From positions 2,418,001 through 2,482,000 of the forward strand of contig CP069394.1 in the NCBI GenBank assembly GCA_016887485.1: a stretch of 64,000 nucleotides of DNA. Direction: 5' to 3'. The notes beneath the pieces are model-generated. The model saw only the letters and a program-made list of their open reading frames with translations. It did no database searches and was not told where the DNA came from. This document shows positions 28,685 to 48,444 of this stretch, piece after piece (the stretch's first letter is position 1; the number at the start of each line of letters is the position of its first letter). This DNA is from Chloroflexota bacterium (GTDB lineage Bacteria > Chloroflexota > Anaerolineae > Anaerolineales > Anaerolineaceae). The translations under genes were made by a program, and so were the position numbers.

Positions 28685-30625
28685 TTAGGGTCGCCAGGCA
28701 GGCTGATAGTCCTCTGCGGGATTGGGCGCGATAACGACGGCTTCGCCCCCTCCAAGGGGCAGGAGGTAAATATCGAGCGCCTCGCCGTTTGGTGCGCCGG
28801 CAAAGGAAAGTATCTTGCCATCCGGTGAGATATCTATGGTGAGGGCTATCCTCAATCCTGTTTCAATGGGGTCGCTCAGGCCGCCAGAGCGGGGAAGCTG
28901 CCCGAGGAGGCCGCCGCTGCCCAGGTCAAAAAGGATCAGGTTATCAACTTCTGACCAGACAGGCCGCAGGGCATGGGTGTACGATTGTCCTAGAATCGCC
29001 TGAGGTTCGTTCTGCCCTTCGGCATCCACCAGGAAGAGGATCGGCTGGTTGGTCGCCGGGCTGGGTGCGACGAAAATGATCTGGCTGCCTTCCGGTGACC
29101 AGGCGGGCATACGGCTGATTGTGGAGCGGTTCATCAGGTTTTCCGTTTGGCCGCTGTCAAAGGAATAGATGAATATCTGGGGTTTGCCGGTTTGGAGCGA
29201 GGTGAAGGCTAATTTGCTGCCATCTGGTGACCAGGCAGGGTCATAATCCCCGGTTGCGAGGGTGGAGATCAGGTCGCTGCGCCCCGTGGAAAGCGTGAGC
29301 ACAAAGATGCTTGCGCCATCATAACGTTCTTGCAGCCCAGGGCAGGGGGAAATATATGCTAAGCGGCTGCCATCCGGGGACCATTCCGGCTGACAGGCGC
29401 CTTCCGCTGCATGGGTCAGGGCCTTGAGGCCAGTGCCATCCTGGTTCACGAGATAGATCTGTGGCAGGCCGTCTCTTTCTGAAACGAAGGCGATCTGGGG
29501 TTGAGGGGTTTGTTCAGTGGCAGGGGCGAGTGTTTCAGTAGGAACAATCACGACCACAGGCTCAGTTTCTATGGTTGGATTATTATCGGTCGGATTAGGT
29601 GTGGCAGGTAGCGTCGTGGCCTCGGTGGTGGCGGTGATTGTTGTTGTTGGCGTCTCTGCGCCGTTTCTCCCGAGCAGGAAGATGGCTGTGGCAGCGGAGG
29701 CCAGAACCACGAACAGCACCGGTGCCAGCCAGGCCCAGATGGATCGCTTTCTGACTGTTGGAGAGGATGGGGCCGTTGCAGTAGAAGACTGTTTTAGGAC
29801 AGGTTGTTCTGCCTGGGGACGGATTGCTAGCAAGGCTTCTCGCATTGCCGCGGTGGAAGGAAAGCGGCCTTCAGGGTGGATCGCAATCGCTTTAGTAATC
29901 ACTGCAGCCAAGTCAGGGCTGACATTTGGGTTGAACGCGGTGATGGGCAAAATGGGATCTTCCCCGATGGCGCGGGTGAGGGATTCCGGCGGCACTTCGC
30001 AGGTTAGCAGGGTATAGAGCGTGGCGCCCAGGGCATAAATATCCGAACGGGCATCAGTGACACCCTGACCGTATTGTTCAATGGGGGAGTAGCCGGAGGT
30101 GCTGCCTGCCGCGCCTGTGGTGGTCTTTTCGCCCTGCTGAAAGTGCTTTGCCAGGCCAAAATCGACCAGCACGATCTGACCCTCAGGAGTTTGTTTGAGG
30201 TTAGCCGGTTTGATATCCCGGTGGATGATGGGTGGTTTACGGCTGTGTAGATAATCCAGCGCCTGGCATACCGCCACGCCAATTTGGATGACCGCATCTT
30301 CCGGCATGGGCTGACCGAGACCGTTTAGGCATTGCGACAGATCCTGCCCGGCGATCAGATCCATGACCAGATATTCACCCTGGTCTGGCAATACAAAATG
30401 GTCAATCACCCGCGGCAGGTTGGGGTGCCGCAGCCCGGCCAACAGGGTGGCCTCGTTGCGAAACTGGCGGGAATGTACCTCGGTGGTGTAGCGGTTTTCT
30501 TTGACCGCCACCTGGATATTAAGGGTTTCATCATAGGCCTGATACACCGTCCCCATGCCGCTCTGCGCCAGAACGGCGTTGATTCGATAGCGTTCTTTTA
30601 GTAGGGAATTGATGACCAGGCTCAA
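28685..30625 (-). CDS. Membrane Ser/Thr protein kinase with extracytoplasmic TolB-like propeller (copy 1)
   Basis: 646 residues from a TTG start chosen because GGAGA lies 7 bases upstream. Kinase domain at about 10-270: VAVKEN with catalytic Lys, HRDIKPAN, VDFGLAK; the Gly-loop is altered at its first position (LAQSGMGTVY). A membrane helix at about 300-320 follows, then a Thr-rich linker, then repeated PD40 blades such as PEWSPDGSRLAYIS and PAWSPDGSKLAFTS to the C-terminus. This is a receptor kinase: an outside propeller, an inside kinase. It begins 34 bases after the related kinase gene's stop, so the pair is an operon and a tandem duplication. Confidence 0.85.
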   Translation of the reverse strand: MSLVINSLLKERYRINAVLAQSGMGTVYQAYDETLNIQVAVKENRYTTEVHSRQFRNEATLLAGLRHPNLPRVIDHFVLPDQGEYLVMDLIAGQDLSQCLNGLGQPMPEDAVIQIGVAVCQALDYLHSRKPPIIHRDIKPANLKQTPEGQIVLVDFGLAKHFQQGEKTTTGAAGSTSGYSPIEQYGQGVTDARSDIYALGATLYTLLTCEVPPESLTRAIGEDPILPITAFNPNVSPDLAAVITKAIAIHPEGRFPSTAAMREALLAIRPQAEQPVLKQSSTATAPSSPTVRKRSIWAWLAPVLFVVLASAATAIFLLGRNGAETPTTTITATTEATTLPATPNPTDNNPTIETEPVVVIVPTETLAPATEQTPQPQIAFVSERDGLPQIYLVNQDGTGLKALTHAAEGACQPEWSPDGSRLAYISPCPGLQERYDGASIFVLTLSTGRSDLISTLATGDYDPAWSPDGSKLAFTSLQTGKPQIFIYSFDSGQTENLMNRSTISRMPAWSPEGSQIIFVAPSPATNQPILFLVDAEGQNEPQAILGQSYTHALRPVWSEVDNLILFDLGSGGLLGQLPRSGGLSDPIETGLRIALTIDISPDGKILSFAGAPNGEALDIYLLPLGGGEAVVIAPNPAEDYQPAWRP

Positions 30626-30658
30626 CTGATTCTCCAGGGTTGTTTACTTGGAAAGGGA

Positions 30659-32710
30659 TTAGTGGACGGGCTTCCAGGCTGGGTCATAATCCAACCCGGG
30701 ATCAATGGTGACCTGGGTTAGGTTTGATCCAGGGAAGGTCATGATGTAAATATCGGATAGCAGATCAGAATACCAATAGTCGAAGGCTAGCCAGTTCCCG
30801 TCGGGAGCGATATCGGCATGATCCATCAGGGGGATGTAACTGGAGAGCGCGCCGGGGAGGATGATGTATTCTTCCGATTGGCCGATATCTTCCAGACGCA
30901 TGCCGAAGAGCTGTTTGGAGGGGCTGCCCAGACCAAGCACCTGGCTGAAGATGATCAGGTCCTCTTCCGGAAACCAGACCGGGTTGCTGTCATCAATCGC
31001 GCCGGAAAGGGTGAATTGGATGGGATTCTCGCCATCTTGGCCCATGAGCCAAACCTGGCCCACGCTGCGAAGCCGGATAAAGGCTAATTGCCGGCCATCT
31101 TCCGACCAGGCAGGTTGAAAATCATCAAAGGTGCCATCGGAAAGCCGGATGATTGTGTCGAAATCGGCCACATTGATTTTCATGATTTGAGCCTGGCCGT
31201 TGACCAGCGAGGTATAGGCGATCCACTGCCCATTGGGTGACCAGGTTGGGTCGAAATCGCCTTCCAGGGATGGCGGCAATGATGTGATCTGCTGATTTTC
31301 CACATTCAGGATAAACAAGCTGGAACCAGGGTAGGAGACGCGCTTTCTGGTGCAGGGCGAGGTGAAGACGATCTGTTTGCCATCCGGCGACCAATCCGCC
31401 TGACAAGCGCCATCCATCAGGTCCGTCAGCTGCGTGGTCTGCCCTGTGGAAACGTCAATGGACCAGATTTGGGGCAGTCCGCTGCGGTCAGATGTGAAAG
31501 CGATGATCCCTGAGCTGCCACCGGTGGGGGTTGGGGTAACGTTTTGGGTCTGGCTGATCACAAACTCGGTGGTGTTTGGATCAGGTGTTCCTAAAAGGCC
31601 GATGGATTCAGTTTCACGGGCAACATAGGTGGCCGTTGTTTGCGAGGGTGTATGGAATACGGACGAAAAACCCTGGGGATCGAGGAGTACATAGATCAAC
31701 AGAGAGAGTACTACAAATGACAGGAAGGTAAAAATGGCCCAAATGGGGTCAAATTTCTTCTTTTTGCCGAATAAAACCTTCCAGGCCTTATCCGCCCAGG
31801 GGGGTAAGGTCATTTTTCGTTGGGATGGAATGGTTCTTCTATCCGGTTCCGTTTGAGTCATCATTGCCAGACGCGGGCTGGACCTTTGGTCCAGGGGGAG
31901 TGTGCGACGGGCTGCAATTAACGCATCTTTGAATTCCTGGGCCGTTTGCCAGCGGTCTTCAAAACGTAAATTGATCGCTTTTTCAATAGCTTCGATAGTT
32001 AAATCGGAGAGATGGGGGCTATACTCCCAGAGACGGGTGAGTGTGGCTTTGCCGGTAGCCCGAGCAAGGCTGTCCTCTGCCAGATATCCGGCCAGGGCGG
32101 CATATAGCGTGGCGCCTAGTGAGAAAATGTCGGAGCGGTGATCGGTGGGATCGGGGCCATATTGTTCAGGCGGGGAGTAACCGGGCGTCATTGCCCGCGC
32201 AGCCGTCGTGGTGATTTCTTTGTTATCCATCACTTTCACCAGACCGAAATCCACCAAAATGACTTCACCAGTCGGGGTGATCTTGACGTTGCCGGGTTTG
32301 ATATCGCGGTGGACAATGGCTGGAACGCGGGAATGCAGGTAGATCAACGCGTTGCAGATGGCTACGCCAATTTGGATGGCTTCCGCTTCAGTGATCTTCT
32401 CTTCGCGGGACATCCACTGGCGCAGGTCGTCCCCTTCGATATAGTCCATGACCAGATATTGCCCTTCCTGGTCGATCACGAAATAATCGAATACCCGGGG
32501 CAGGTTGGGATGGCGAAGGGAGGCCAGGATTTGCGCCTCACGTTGGAATTGGCGTGCGTATTCTTCTGAGAAAAAGGAGTTTTCCTTAACCGCGACAGTG
32601 ACGTTCAGATTTTCGTCCAGGGCGCGATAGACGGCTCCCATTCCCCCTTGTCCAAGGATATCCTGGATGCGATAGCGATTATTGAGTAGAAAACCTTTAC
32701 CTAATGTCAT
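30659..32710 (-). CDS. Membrane Ser/Thr protein kinase with extracytoplasmic TolB-like propeller (copy 2)
   Basis: 683 residues. The Gly-loop is canonical (LGQGGMGAVYRA, about 19-30), with VAVKEN, HRDIKPGN and VDFGLVK following. A basic juxtamembrane stretch (KKKKFD) and a membrane helix around 325-345 precede a linker and PD40 blades (QADWSPDGKQIVFTS, PTWSPNGQWIAYTS). Same layout as the next gene, so the two come from a duplication. It is transcribed away from the Thr/Pro-rich surface protein gene, sharing a short control region, which suggests a common signalling unit. No ribosome site is evident before the ATG. Confidence 0.86.
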   Translation of the reverse strand: MTLGKGFLLNNRYRIQDILGQGGMGAVYRALDENLNVTVAVKENSFFSEEYARQFQREAQILASLRHPNLPRVFDYFVIDQEGQYLVMDYIEGDDLRQWMSREEKITEAEAIQIGVAICNALIYLHSRVPAIVHRDIKPGNVKITPTGEVILVDFGLVKVMDNKEITTTAARAMTPGYSPPEQYGPDPTDHRSDIFSLGATLYAALAGYLAEDSLARATGKATLTRLWEYSPHLSDLTIEAIEKAINLRFEDRWQTAQEFKDALIAARRTLPLDQRSSPRLAMMTQTEPDRRTIPSQRKMTLPPWADKAWKVLFGKKKKFDPIWAIFTFLSFVVLSLLIYVLLDPQGFSSVFHTPSQTTATYVARETESIGLLGTPDPNTTEFVISQTQNVTPTPTGGSSGIIAFTSDRSGLPQIWSIDVSTGQTTQLTDLMDGACQADWSPDGKQIVFTSPCTRKRVSYPGSSLFILNVENQQITSLPPSLEGDFDPTWSPNGQWIAYTSLVNGQAQIMKINVADFDTIIRLSDGTFDDFQPAWSEDGRQLAFIRLRSVGQVWLMGQDGENPIQFTLSGAIDDSNPVWFPEEDLIIFSQVLGLGSPSKQLFGMRLEDIGQSEEYIILPGALSSYIPLMDHADIAPDGNWLAFDYWYSDLLSDIYIMTFPGSNLTQVTIDPGLDYDPAWKPVH

Positions 32711-34670: not shown

Positions 34671-34750
34671 GCCTGTGGCCTCCGAGTAGATGGTTTTTTA
34701 TTTGTCTGTTAATTCTAGGTTCAATTGGGCGATTGGGCAAGCGATTTGTT

Positions 34751-35037
34751 CTTGTCATTGCGAGGAACGAAGCAATCTCAGTTATTGTCTTTTTTGGATT
34801 GCTTCCTCCGCCTGGCGGCTTCGTCGCAATGACAAGAAAGACATTTTGGGCATTCTGGGGCAAGACATTTACTCCCATTTTGTCATTGTGAGGGACGAAG
34901 CAATCTCAGTTATTGTCTTTTTTGGATTGCTTCCTCCGCCTGGCGGCTCCGTCGCAATGACAAGAGAGACATTTTGGTCATTCTGGGACATGATACTTTC
35001 TCTCATTTTGTCATTGCGAGGAACGAAGCAATCTCAG
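34751..35037. repeat. 128-bp tandem palindromic repeat, about 2.2 copies
   Basis: The motif GTCATTGCGAGG starts at 34754, again as GTCATTGTGAGG at 34882, and again at 35010: a period of exactly 128 bases. Each full unit holds an imperfect long inverted repeat: outer arms CTTGTCATTGCGA/TCGCAATGACAAG, inner arms GAAGCAATC/GATTGCTTC, and a side hairpin CCGCC-t-GGCGG in the right arm. The third copy stops after the left arm, at the edge of comEC. Units differ at only a few bases. It fills nearly all of the gap 34671-35054 and carries no gene. Confidence 0.85.
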
Positions 35038-35054
35038 AAGATTTTCCCGTGAGC

Positions 35055-38836: not shown

Positions 38837-39706
38837 ATGTCAGAGGCCAAACCTCTCCCAAAATTTGCTGTATTGCAGCTTTCAGGCTGTGCAGGTTGCG
38901 AAGTTTCCCTGATCAATGCTACGGAGTGGGTCGATAATTATCAACTGGTATATATGCCGCTGGTTGTCTCAACGACGGCTGTACCGGATGATACTGAGAT
39001 TCTCTTGGTCAGCGGTGGGGTGCGCAATGACGAAGATATCTACAATTTGCGAAAAGCTGCTGCGAAAGTGGATCGGGTCATAGCGGTTGGCACCTGTGCG
39101 ATTTCCGGCGGGGTATCCAACCTGGGTGACCGGGATGACGTTCGCAATATATTCCTGGCCCAATCCACCCGCCATCACCTGCCGCACCTCTTACCCAAGA
39201 GCCATCCCATTGATGCTTTTGTGGATGTGGACCTTTACCTGCCGGGCTGCCCGCCAACGCCGGAGCTTTTCATGGCCGCCCTCACCGATCCGGAAGGCTA
39301 TGAGGCTGGCAGCATTGTCTGTGTGGAATGCGGACGCAAGAAGCTGAAAGATATGCGCCCCACGCATTTGGTTGGGTTTCAGCAGGGTGAAGTCCTGCCG
39401 GATATTTGCCTGATCAATCAGGGTTACCTCTGTGTGGGATCATCCACTCGGGGTGGTTGCCGGGCGATCTGCACCAAACCCGGGCACCCTTGTGTGGGCT
39501 GCCGGGGACCATCCAATGCCTATATAGAAAAGGAATCTTCGGTCTGGTTTGACCGTGTTCAACAGGTATTTGAACGAATGACCGATATTCCGCCAGAAGA
39601 GATCAAGGAGGCGCTGCATTCTCCGCAGCTTTCGCTGTTCCTGTTCCAATTCACAGATTATTCCGAAGGCGGCCGTCCGCCGAGACCGAAAGAAAAGGTG
39701 TTGTAA
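38837..39706 (+). CDS. Group 3-like [NiFe] hydrogenase small subunit
   Basis: 289 residues of the F420-nonreducing/MvhG-like type. It carries iron-sulfur clusters that pass electrons from the large subunit. Cysteine motifs: CAGCEVS (18-24) and GTCAISGG and PGCPPTPE for the proximal cluster; VCVECGR and the C-terminal run CVGS...GGCRAICTKPGHPCVGC for further clusters. No signal peptide, so cytoplasmic. AGGATGG serves as the ribosome site. The large subunit begins one base after the stop, so the two are strictly coupled. No diaphorase, HdrA or MvhD gene is nearby, so the electron partner is unknown. Confidence 0.88.
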   Translation: MSEAKPLPKFAVLQLSGCAGCEVSLINATEWVDNYQLVYMPLVVSTTAVPDDTEILLVSGGVRNDEDIYNLRKAAAKVDRVIAVGTCAISGGVSNLGDRDDVRNIFLAQSTRHHLPHLLPKSHPIDAFVDVDLYLPGCPPTPELFMAALTDPEGYEAGSIVCVECGRKKLKDMRPTHLVGFQQGEVLPDICLINQGYLCVGSSTRGGCRAICTKPGHPCVGCRGPSNAYIEKESSVWFDRVQQVFERMTDIPPEEIKEALHSPQLSLFLFQFTDYSEGGRPPRPKEKVL

Positions 39707-39707
39707 G

Positions 39708-41021
39708 ATGACCACCCTCAGATTCCCCCTCAGTCGGATTGAAGGCCATGCCCGGGTTGAAATGGAAGTTCAGGATGGTGAGGTCGTTTCAGCCCAATTT
39801 CAGGCAATCGAGATGCGTGGATTTCGCTATTTTGTACAGGGGACGCCCGCTGAACAGATGCCGGTGATTGTCCCTCGGATTTGCGGTGTTTGCTCCACAG
39901 CCCACCATGTCGCCTCGGTCAAGGCCTTGGAAAATGCCCTCGAAGTTGAACCGCCAAAATTAGCTAATGAGATCCGCGAGCTGCTCTTGCTGGGCCAATT
40001 GATCCAGAACCAGGCAACCTCGCTCTTTATTTTCACCATGCCCGATCGGGTGGGTGCCAGTTCCATCTTTCACATGGAGGACAGCGAGGCGAACCCGGAA
40101 CAGCAGCTCAGTCTGGCCCAACGAGCGCTCAAAGTGCGCCAGATCGGCACTAAATTGATTACCCTGGCCGGCGGGCAATTTATCCATCCGGTGAAAGCGA
40201 TCATTGGCGGTGTAACCAGCGGGATCAAAGCCGAAGACGCCAAACAGATGCTTAAGGAACTGCAGGATACGATCACGACCGCCTGCGAGTTATTCGATGA
40301 ATATTGGGATATGTCTCTGGCGATGAAGGAGCGAATCGGTACCTGGGGGGATGACGAACCAGCTTGTTACATTGCCTCGACAGGCGTTAACCGGCCGGAA
40401 TTCAACAGCAGCGTTATCCGGGTACTGGGTCCCAATGGAAATGAAAAAGCAACCTTCCCGCCGGAGAGCTTCCGTGATTTTTTGGATTATCAAACAACAG
40501 ACTACAGTTTTGCCGGGAAATCGAGTTTTGAGGGGATGGTGCTGCGGGCTAACAGTTTGGCAAGGATGAACCTGACTCGTTCCATGGGAACGCCCTGTGC
40601 GGATTATTATTTGGAACGGTTAACCACGGAATTTGGTAAACCGGCGCACCCGATTTTACTCTTTGACCTTTGCCGCGGGATTGAACTGGTCTATGCCTTT
40701 GAACGTGCGATTGAAATGCTTTCGGAGGATTTAGACTACGAAGACACCTCGGTGCCCTACAGCCTGCGGGATGGTGAGGGGTATGGCCTGGTGGAAGCGC
40801 CGCGCGGTCCACTAATCCATCATTACACCATCGAGAATGGCCTGATCGCCGATGCGGAATTCATCATCCCCACCGTGCATAATATGGGTGCGATCGAACG
40901 AGCCCTGAAAGTGGCCGGTGAACGGTATATTACCCCGCAGGGTATCAACCTGGAACTTGAAAAGGCTGTCGGACGGGTCGTCCGAGCATTTGACCCCTGC
41001 ATTGCCTGCGCGACACAGTAG
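39708..41021 (+). CDS. Group 3-like [NiFe] hydrogenase large subunit without C-terminal processing peptide
   Basis: 437 residues. The Ni-Fe site ligands are present: RICGVC (N-terminal pair) and DPCIAC (C-terminal pair). The start TTLRFPLSRIEGHARVE is typical of the group 3/4 alpha subunits. The family normally ends DPCxxCxxH or R followed by a short peptide cut off by an endopeptidase after nickel loading. Here the protein ends DPCIACATQ: His/Arg is Gln and nothing follows. A palindromic element starts 6 bases after the stop. Either the subunit needs no protease, as in regulatory and some energy-converting hydrogenases, or the tail was lost. Both active-site Cys pairs suggest it can still bind the metal. 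Confidence 0.88.
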   Translation: MTTLRFPLSRIEGHARVEMEVQDGEVVSAQFQAIEMRGFRYFVQGTPAEQMPVIVPRICGVCSTAHHVASVKALENALEVEPPKLANEIRELLLLGQLIQNQATSLFIFTMPDRVGASSIFHMEDSEANPEQQLSLAQRALKVRQIGTKLITLAGGQFIHPVKAIIGGVTSGIKAEDAKQMLKELQDTITTACELFDEYWDMSLAMKERIGTWGDDEPACYIASTGVNRPEFNSSVIRVLGPNGNEKATFPPESFRDFLDYQTTDYSFAGKSSFEGMVLRANSLARMNLTRSMGTPCADYYLERLTTEFGKPAHPILLFDLCRGIELVYAFERAIEMLSEDLDYEDTSVPYSLRDGEGYGLVEAPRGPLIHHYTIENGLIADAEFIIPTVHNMGAIERALKVAGERYITPQGINLELEKAVGRVVRAFDPCIACATQ

Positions 41022-41026
41022 TTGTT

Positions 41027-41173
41027 TTGTCATTGCGAGGAACACCCGAAGGGTGTGACGTGGCAATCTAAGAATTTCAGATTTAGGTGAATTTGGAAAG
41101 AGTACCTACTCTTAGCTAAATAAAAAGCTGAGATTGCTTCGTCGCGCTTGGCAGCGCTTCCTCGCAATGACAA
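41027..41173. mobile_element. MITE-like palindromic element after the hydrogenase gene
   Basis: 147 bp with perfect 16-base terminal inverted repeats TTGTCATTGCGAGGAA/TTCCTCGCAATGACAA. Inside are a second stem GCAATCT/AGATTGC and side hairpins ACACCC-gaa-GGGTGT and GCGCT-tggc-AGCGC. No coding capacity. The termini match the tandem repeat at 34.75 kb, so both belong to one dispersed family. No clear target-site duplication is visible. Confidence 0.7.
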
Positions 41174-41176
41174 GAA

Positions 41177-41941
41177 TTACCCCTTTTGATTTATGAATTC
41201 CGCTATTATCTCCAAAAGTTCTTCCAGTAGATAAGTTTTACCCTTATTAGCAAGTTCATCCGGGATGCCATAAAAGGCCTCGGCGATTCCACCGGTGATA
41301 TTCGTCAGGGTGTCGCTGTCACCGCCCAATGAGATGGCGAGGCGGATCGCGTTTTCGAAGTCCGTGGACTCCAGAAAGGCGATGATCGCTTCCGGGACCG
41401 TCCCCTGGCAGGAAACGTCGAACTGGTAGCCCGGCCGGATCTCAGCTAAGGTGCGGTTCAGGTCATATCCAAAGCGACCGTTGATTTCATCTCGGATGAC
41501 AGCCTTATCCGCGCCCTGACGGGCCAGCAGGATGGCCAGAGCGGTGGCCTGAGCGCCTTTGATCCCCTCGGGGTGGTTATGGGTCACGGCTGCGCTGCGT
41601 TCGGCTTCCGCCAGGACGTCGGCAACTGTGTCGAGGGCGAAACCAACCGGACTGACCCGCATGGCTGAACCATTCCCCCAACTGTTATAGGGCTGGGGAT
41701 CTTCCGACCAGATCCATTGGGCGAATCGCCCGCCATAGCCGCGGCCAGGGTAGCGGCGGGAGAAATCCTGATAGGCGCGGGTGTAATCCCCATCCGTCAG
41801 CAAGGCATGCGCGGTCGCTGCGGTCAGCACGGTGTCATCGGTGAAAAAACATTCACGTGTAAAGAATTCAAAATCGGGGGTTTTGATGTTGTGCCATTCA
41901 TAAACCGAACCGACGATATCACCGATCATCGCACCAAGCAA
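41177..41941 (-). CDS. ADP-ribosylglycohydrolase family protein
   Basis: 254 residues. Metal-binding motifs of the DraG/ARH fold are present: GAMIGDIVGS (3-12), FFTDDTVLTAA (about 32-42), and the late GGDSDTLTNITGGIAEA (about 205-221). Family members remove ADP-ribose from proteins or small molecules using two Mg2+ ions; DraG reverses ADP-ribosylation of nitrogenase reductase. No nitrogenase or ADP-ribosyltransferase gene is near, so the target is unknown. The last gene of the minus-strand run that starts with wecC. Confidence 0.88.
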   Translation of the reverse strand: MLGAMIGDIVGSVYEWHNIKTPDFEFFTRECFFTDDTVLTAATAHALLTDGDYTRAYQDFSRRYPGRGYGGRFAQWIWSEDPQPYNSWGNGSAMRVSPVGFALDTVADVLAEAERSAAVTHNHPEGIKGAQATALAILLARQGADKAVIRDEINGRFGYDLNRTLAEIRPGYQFDVSCQGTVPEAIIAFLESTDFENAIRLAISLGGDSDTLTNITGGIAEAFYGIPDELANKGKTYLLEELLEIIAEFINQKG

Positions 41942-47714: not shown

Positions 47715-47723
47715 ATTATACCA
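47715..47723 (-). promoter_or_regulatory. Extended -10 promoter abutting the hutI start
   Basis: On the minus strand TGGTATAAT is followed by nine bases and the ATG ending at 47705. The box overlaps the last codons of the SCO1664-like gene, so hutI would have its own promoter inside the run. Confidence 0.5.
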
Positions 47724-48444
47724 ACGGCCAGGGATAGGCACGCCGGTCTTCGGGTGGGATAGGGTAGATTCCGGTTTCGAGCAGCCATTGGCCCCGCTCC
47801 CGCAGGGCGTGAATCTCGGCTGGGAGGAGGAACGGCGTCAGCGCTTCTGCCAGTGTGCCATCTGGTTCCAGTGCGGGCAGAACCATGGCTAAGTTCGCCA
47901 ACAGGTTTGCCGGGATAGGCTGACCCGCGTGATCCCAGATAACCGTGCGGAGCTTGTCTTCCTTGTGAAAGCAGACGCCGTGGTCGATTAGCCAGAGCTT
48001 GCGGTTAGTGTCAACCAACAGGTGACCGGATTTGCGGTCAGCATTATTGACCAGGTGGTCAAAGAGCATCACTTCGGGCAGGCGAACCTTGTCGGCTTCG
48101 TTGAAACTAAAGTAATGGTATTCCGGGTCATGATCAATGAATTGTTGCAGTGAACCCGGCCCCATCAGCGCCTCATCCGTCCGGAAGACCGTGGGTGAGA
48201 CCAAGTCCCAGTCTAGGGCTTCGCTGACCAGATAGGCAGTCACTTCCCGCTTGGCGAGAGTCTCTTTGGGGAAATCCCAAAGGGGTCTTTCCCCCTGGAC
48301 CGGTTTATAAACGGCCTTGATTTCACGACCTTCGAATTGGGCCGTGACCATCAGGGTGGTATTGGACCCATAGACAAACTGACCCTCCAGAAGTAAGGTG
48401 CCTTCCTGCAGTGTTCTCAGGATGTCTTCTTTTGTTGAGTCCAT
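47716..48444 (-). CDS. SCO1664-family protein (PI3/4-kinase-like fold)
   Basis: 242 residues. Recognised from its conserved blocks: AVYKPVQGERPLWDFPKETLAKREVTAYLVS (about 44-74), the late NNADRKSGHLL (about 133-143), and LWLIDHGVCF. The Lys in VYKP and the Asp pairs in NADRK and IDHG match kinase-like positions, but no reaction is known for the family. In actinobacteria it is found next to a DUF3090 gene and a phosphatase-like gene; here the DUF3090 gene lies 8 bases upstream and the third member is absent. No ribosome site is seen, so translational coupling is likely. Confidence 0.78.
   Translation of the reverse strand: MDSTKEDILRTLQEGTLLLEGQFVYGSNTTLMVTAQFEGREIKAVYKPVQGERPLWDFPKETLAKREVTAYLVSEALDWDLVSPTVFRTDEALMGPGSLQQFIDHDPEYHYFSFNEADKVRLPEVMLFDHLVNNADRKSGHLLVDTNRKLWLIDHGVCFHKEDKLRTVIWDHAGQPIPANLLANLAMVLPALEPDGTLAEALTPFLLPAEIHALRERGQWLLETGIYPIPPEDRRAYPWPLV

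Follow-up and report, generated by a model that had tools for sequence, protein, structure and literature searches.

The window, by which we mean the whole stretch of 64,000 nucleotides that was analysed, carries a two-gene [NiFe] hydrogenase operon, with the small subunit gene followed after one base by the large subunit gene, and then by an inverted repeat and a convergent gene that is flank and lies outside the enzyme (Table 1). The large subunit ORF ends in ...VVRAFDPCIACATQ and then TAG. The original prediction was that the protein stops at DPCIACATQ with no tail, and this reading of the ORF holds, the same end being found in the relatives described below. Translation beyond the TAG yields 22 codons of a repeat-encoded peptide (LFCHCEEHPKGV...) with no resemblance to a hydrogenase tail.

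Table 1. Features of the tailless hydrogenase locus and one operon elsewhere in the genome. Coordinates are window positions unless a contig is named.
Feature	Coordinates	Strand	Matches and remarks
Small subunit, 289 aa, MvhG/VhuG-like	38837..39706	+	Oxidored_q6; best NCBIfam VhuG 142.8 bits (cut-off 450); best solved chain 5odc_E MvhG
[NiFe] large subunit, tailless, 437 aa	39708..41021	+	PF00374 121 bits (cut-off 25.8); best solved chain 5odc_F MvhA
N-terminal metal-binding motif RICGVC	39876..39893	+	Invariant in the alignment of 20 rows
C-terminal motif DPCIACATQ	40992..41018	+	Other 2 ligand Cys; final residues before the stop
TAG stop	41019..41021	+	At the site where a protease would cleave a normal precursor
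Inverted-repeat element, 147 bp	41027..41173		Ends TTGTCATTGCGAGGAA...; fills the gap to the convergent gene
Convergent neighbour, ADP-ribosylglycohydrolase-like	41177..41941	-	PF03747 120.5 bits
Hydrogenase-free operon	C1 589.6-599.4 kb (L170 3595-13379)		Aldehyde:ferredoxin oxidoreductase, ferredoxin-like, HdrA-like, 2 FlpD (MvhD-like), and flavin/NAD-binding proteins

The large subunit was aligned for 20 of the 23 orthologue loci defined below (L017, which is truncated, L020, and L026 were left out), and across these rows the 4 ligand Cys, the RIEGH and APRG motifs, and the C-terminal DPCIAC are invariant. The RICGVC of the window protein holds 2 of the 4 Ni-ligand Cys, by the role established for this motif in the family. 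The protein is under strong purifying selection, having dN 0.057 and dS 1.77 against a 91%-identical relative, for a dN/dS of about 0.03. The AlphaFold model has a mean pLDDT of 81, dropping below 50 at residues 433-437, so the placement of the terminal Gln is not readable from it.

The small subunit has 12 conserved Cys, the residue being Cys in all rows not gapped at these columns (66-69 of 69 rows). That is enough for 3 [4Fe-4S] clusters, by which electrons could reach the small-subunit surface. When 81 stretches around the gene and its relatives were clustered, the small subunit was found beside the gene in 69 and the large subunit was picked up in 75, these neighbor counts being lowered by cut contigs and by a simple ORF caller that loses genes to antisense frames. 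All 65 of 65 small/large pairs are on one strand, and in 52 the gap is -4 to +2 bases. The next commonest neighbor is an inositol-monophosphatase-like family in 24 of 81 stretches, which in 22 of 63 is the adjoining upstream gene and points the other way, followed by an HD-domain family in 19 of 81; both look like conserved Anaerolineaceae genome order. Among the 81 stretches clustered and the 22 read by eye, no diaphorase, Hdr, MvhD, kinase, or protease family recurs near the gene. L120 has a receiver-domain-like ORF upstream, in opposite orientation. In the window there are 2 adjoining serine/threonine-kinase-type genes at 28685-32710, the first with C-terminal PD40-like repeats according to a Pfam scan of that gene, and a small protein at 47716-48444 with a PI3/PI4-kinase-like or HipA-like domain match.

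The short terminus is inherited across the whole enzyme lineage. The orthologue group that was read first, at 63% identity or more to the window protein and drawn from the window's genome and those of 100 relatives (101 in all), has 23 loci (the window's and 22 others), all of which stop at the same position without a tail, with Gln as the last residue in 17, His in 3, and Lys in 3. A wider set, taking one genome per GTDB species, found 100 relatives and kept 80 loci, partly from the same species as the first set; 3 of these run off the contig without a C-terminus, and L094 and L099 come from one genome. A tail is present in 0 of the 77 loci with a readable end. They terminate as CATH (40 loci), CATQ (22), CATK (13), CATN (1), and CATQH (1). 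The Gln pointed out at the start as standing in place of the usual terminal His or Arg is real, with His being the commonest residue in the clade. The CATQH end belongs to L081, which is the sole readable clade member to be one residue longer than a CATQ or CATH end. The stop codons at the shared end of the 77 loci are TAA in 27, TAG in 26, and TGA in 24, and because all 3 are in use, the end is evidently preserved by selection and not by a common piece of DNA. On a tree made without the terminal residue from 74 of 78 rows, with 4 short rows dropped, 5 changes suffice to account for that residue, which makes it stable within sublineages. A sequencing error or frameshift whose correction would restore a tail, named originally as a danger to the observation, is excluded in practice: among the 80 relatives, the 77 that can be read to the end terminate at one position (L081 a residue later), with all 3 stop codons in use.

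The inverted repeat is more than chance. Its arms, at 41027-41077 and 41123-41173, are 51 nt each and 71% complementary, starting 6 bases past the stop, and when 41024-41176 is folded as a single strand the energy is -72.9 kcal/mol versus a shuffle mean of -37.3 (z = -9.95, with 0 of 200 shuffles as good). With the arms located and the fold compared with shuffles, the proposal of a 147-bp element at that distance from the stop is confirmed. It is one copy of a dispersed family, incidental to the terminus. The 12 bases of the repeat end (CCTCGCAATGAC) have 47 exact copies in the 2.9-Mb genome, often clustered, against 0 for the reversed control, and a similarity search with the repeat finds 16 places in the genome, its own copy included. 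Rfam gives the repeat only 2 miRNA matches, far below the gathering scores, which we take as chance. More pieces of the TCATTGCGAG repeat family are in the window at 34690-35052, 11230, 34755, and 35011, one of which lies within a probably spurious ORF that has the peptide CHCEERSNL.

One of the 2 readings offered originally was that the repeat, on inserting into the 3' end, had deprived the window genome's protein of a tail, the other being a natural protease-independent subunit. In favor of insertion are the closeness of the repeat to the stop and the left-arm remnants that occupy the same site in 2 of the 3 relatives aligned, L052 and L053 (L121 having a trace at best). The 4 loci in that alignment have stops TAG, TGA, TAA, and TAA. 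Against insertion, other relatives have unrelated DNA downstream and an identical protein end, from which it follows that the element did not create the terminus, and the 12 loci of the window's genus have a common protein end while the downstream DNA varies. Element-free relatives, and enzymes from other phyla, end at the same residue. Orthologues with neither tail nor element, which had been named at the outset as a refuting outcome, are thus what the relatives provide, so that tail loss by insertion is refuted, or at the least extremely improbable, and the natural protease-independent subunit is the reading that is supported.

A search of the genome for hypA-F and a hydrogenase endopeptidase, also proposed originally, finds hypA, B, D, E, and F, a candidate hypC, and one protease. 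The 5 hyp genes and the protease, scoring 62 bits against TIGR00072 (cut-off 47.45), adjoin a second large subunit at C1:559.7-561.2 kb, which has a 25-residue tail after CSTH (...CSTHAIGQMPITVDVFDAKGKVTQTLQRD) and is 31% identical to the tailless one. An 85-aa ORF beginning MCLGIPGK is, by its motif, presumably the expected hypC. The hyp genes and protease are 1.9 Mb from the tailless gene along the contig. An initial impression that the protease was absent from the genome did not stand: PF01750 found none, yet TIGR00072 found one, making this a PF01750 miss and not an absence. That sole TIGR00072 match is beside the other hydrogenase, with no cognate protease in the tailless operon.

More generally, proteases track other large subunits. 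In 25 group genomes, 23 of which have the tailless gene, there are 26 TIGR00072 matches in 21 genomes; those without a match are G001, G004, and G005 (66-70% complete), and G014, for which no [NiFe] large subunit match was found. Reading by eye among the matches listed, 20 of the 26 are at most 1.4 kb from another large subunit and the other 6 have no such neighbor among these matches, the tailed state of the adjoining large subunits being read for part of the loci. By the same reading, 0 of 26 share a contig with the tailless gene at a distance of 100 kb or less.

Of 397 genomes sampled across the class, 25 have the clade (all with a completeness of at least 90%). Proteases were looked for in these 25, first in 6, all positive, and then in 19 at E <= 0.01. 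A protease match was obtained in 12 of the 19, and nothing beyond 2 weak fragments of protease type (17 bits) in G132, and G358, G400, G243, G252, G313, and G324 gave no TIGR00072 match at that threshold. All 7 of these last genomes have hypD. The tailless gene is the only PF00374 match in G400 (97% complete), G252 (96%), G313 (90%), and G132; G358 (99%) likewise has only the tailless large subunit, but the gene is cut by a contig end. G243 and G324 have an additional Ech-like large subunit ending CIACADR, which is also tailless. Having hypD and a sole tailless subunit with no protease found fits cofactor insertion by the Hyp proteins without an endopeptidase, and we consider these genomes good evidence for protease-independent maturation, to be read with the knowledge that HMM searches can miss divergent proteases, as PF01750 missed the real one of the window genome, and that contamination of 6-8% in G243, G252, G313, and G324 (8% in G252, 6% in G313) is not negligible. 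In genomes beyond the window's, hypD stands alone for the Hyp machinery, and of the 19 genomes the large subunits were read in the 7 just named. Family or genus members that lack the clade include G014, G396, and G426, where no hypD, PF00374 match, or protease is found, and G436, where hypD and protease are both found. On the side, large subunits of Anaerolineae that are presumably Ech-like (L159, L161, L162, and L163) end in ...CIACADR and are a second tailless type in the group, and the hypD match at G226:C141:11161-12258 has an in-frame TGA, which means that the gene is broken or the assembly faulty at this point.

By sequence, the best solved relatives are MvhA for the large subunit and MvhG for the small one, and a fold comparison of the large-subunit model also has MvhA nearest, at TM 0.83. 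The F420-non-reducing MvhA/MvhG of group 3c (PDB ID: 5odc) resembles the window enzyme in its Cys-rich small subunit. MvhA precursors ordinarily carry a C-terminal tail, which is lacking here, and the match to MvhA stops at residue 447 of a chain sequence 473 residues long. In the 81 stretches, MvhD or Hdr genes do not recur beside the gene. The VhuA equivalog gives 238 bits versus a cut-off of 800. In a tree of 51 rows with tails trimmed (28 chosen clade rows and 23 others), the 28 join as one clade (100/99) apart from the MvhA rows, and apart also from the 3b-like, 3c/3d, and 2 group 2b rows, in agreement with a quick tree; the labels 3b, 3c, and 3d are taken from record annotation or presumed. 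We therefore do not place the enzyme in group 3c, as it is outside the MvhA rows and below the VhuA cut-off with MvhD not alongside, FlpD proteins being encoded elsewhere. The junction of the clade with other group 3 enzymes has weak support (74/52) and long branches meet there, for which reason loss of a tail is indistinguishable from its primitive absence. The clade is deep, well supported, and group-3-like, and it is not sensory group 2b. From record titles, its hosts include Chloroflexota, 5 Thermodesulfobacteriota, and 2 Nitrospirota bins, and it is present in the cultured strains Pelolinea submarina and Longilinea arvoryzae. L077 comes from a bin labelled Proteobacteria and may be a misplaced contig.

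Two other kinds of [NiFe] hydrogenase are instructive by comparison. The HydABCSL-type bifurcating enzyme (PDB ID: 7t2r) is of the same superfamily as the window enzyme, and the second enzyme of the window genome, which resembles this type and from its gene order presumably belongs to it, shares a genome with the hyp genes that both would use. It has a tail, an adjoining protease, and diaphorase-type subunits, whereas the tailless enzyme has none of these. Ech/CooH-type enzymes of groups 4c, 4e, and 4g are listed as naturally tailless, like the window enzyme, but they are membrane complexes, whereas here there is a two-gene, soluble-looking dimer. In the passages that list naturally tailless groups, one paper names 2b, 2d, 4c, 4e, and 4g (PMC7294309) and another 2b, 2d, 4c, and 4e (PMC12134894), and group 3 is missing from both lists.

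Putting this together, the locus very probably encodes an orphan two-subunit [NiFe] hydrogenase of a deep group-3-like lineage, with a putative protease-free maturation and a repeat unrelated to its terminus. The large subunit would be translated directly at its mature length, the NiFe(CN)2CO cofactor would be assembled and put in place by the Hyp proteins encoded elsewhere, and the C-terminus would close over it with no endopeptidase step in the cell. In the predicted active enzyme, the 3 clusters of the small subunit would exchange electrons with a carrier encoded at another locus, which may be ferredoxin. The repeat would have landed in the downstream gap, unconnected with the terminus.

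A different function for a tailless large subunit is that of an H2 sensor like the group 2b regulatory hydrogenases, signaling to a kinase encoded elsewhere, and a sensory hydrogenase was the comparison made originally. The part of it that stands is the missing tail: large subunits of group 2b are described as having none in the pertinent part of one paper (PMC7294309), and HoxC and HupV end at the residue after CxxCxx, as here. The absence of any redox partner recurring beside the gene would suit a sensor too. As a statement about family, however, the comparison is rejected, since the clade is far from the 2 group 2b rows in the tree and does not group with HoxC/HupV, and no linked histidine kinase or other kinase-like partner recurs in the 81 stretches clustered and 22 read by eye; HoxBC is followed by an ATP-binding-protein gene, and the window operon by the convergent gene of Table 1. 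The small subunit also retains its full set of 12 Cys, and in several genomes the tailless protein is the sole [NiFe] large subunit found, leaving no other [NiFe] hydrogenase to regulate ([FeFe] enzymes being outside the search). A sensor is accordingly unlikely. Less likely still is that the gene is not for an enzyme at all, but for a paralogue that is inactive or in decay, or else for a HoxV-like scaffold in maturation, as one might suspect from an orphan operon and an unusual terminal residue. The dN/dS of the large subunit speaks against decay, all 4 ligand Cys are present where the HoxV C-terminal motif (DPCVPY) is one short, and some genomes have this as the only [NiFe] large subunit found.

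As to its electron partner, the enzyme could act in trans as the hydrogenase of an Hdr/Flx-type bifurcating complex, with FlpD, which is MvhD-like, as the docking subunit. Such a partnership would go with the preferred explanation and does not compete with tailless maturation, and we suggest it tentatively, as less likely than not. The small subunit is closest to MvhG, which is the partner of MvhD, and the genome has the hydrogenase-free FlpD/HdrA-like operon of Table 1. FlpD is found in 18 of 20 family genomes with the tailless gene versus 3 of 19 without it (Fisher p = 3e-6), and counted by genus, omitting 4 clade-less genomes of mixed genera, in 7 of 9 versus 1 of 11 (p = 0.005), in tables for which genomes were chosen and not drawn, counts were read by eye, and relatedness was only roughly controlled. 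The co-occurrence is, however, confounded by descent, and in 6 of the 18 (G009, G011, G013, G030, G042, and G043), the FlpD module is beside another, MvhA-like large subunit. Furthermore, G014 has FlpD without a [NiFe] large subunit, FlpD is missing from G027 and G032 despite their tailless gene, and the operon at C1 589.6-599.4 kb carries its own NAD-binding subunit. The gene order of that operon is, by eye, the same in G400 and G358.

Oxidoreductase-like neighbors in a few distant relatives hint at ferredoxin as the partner. Directly upstream of the tailless operon on the same strand are an aldehyde:ferredoxin oxidoreductase-like gene in L103 (2-1096) and a 2-oxoacid:ferredoxin oxidoreductase-like pair in L091 (4351-7006). 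A ferredoxin-dependent oxidoreductase-like gene is near the operon on the other strand in L126 (3960-5786), and L128 (1169-3067) has one by protein cluster only.

In a literature search mostly of titles and listings among open-licence papers, we recognized no description of a tailless group 3 enzyme, and the clade may already bear an existing subgroup name (HydDB). That it is an undescribed [NiFe] subgroup, in the form of a minimal protease-independent group-3-like dimer spread over 3 phyla, with a trans Hdr/Flx-type partner and with Gln or Lys replacing the terminal His in stable sublineages, is a speculative proposal, more doubtful than not when all its parts are taken together.

Why most [NiFe] hydrogenases carry a cleavable tail while some do not is called ambiguous in one paper (PMC7294309). 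The window genome, with a tailless and a tailed enzyme beside one hyp set, is a clean natural comparison for that question. Heterologous production might likewise be easier with the tailless enzyme, which should do without a matching protease. For the fermentative Anaerolineaceae, the finding adds a hydrogenase, one for which we propose a separately encoded electron partner.
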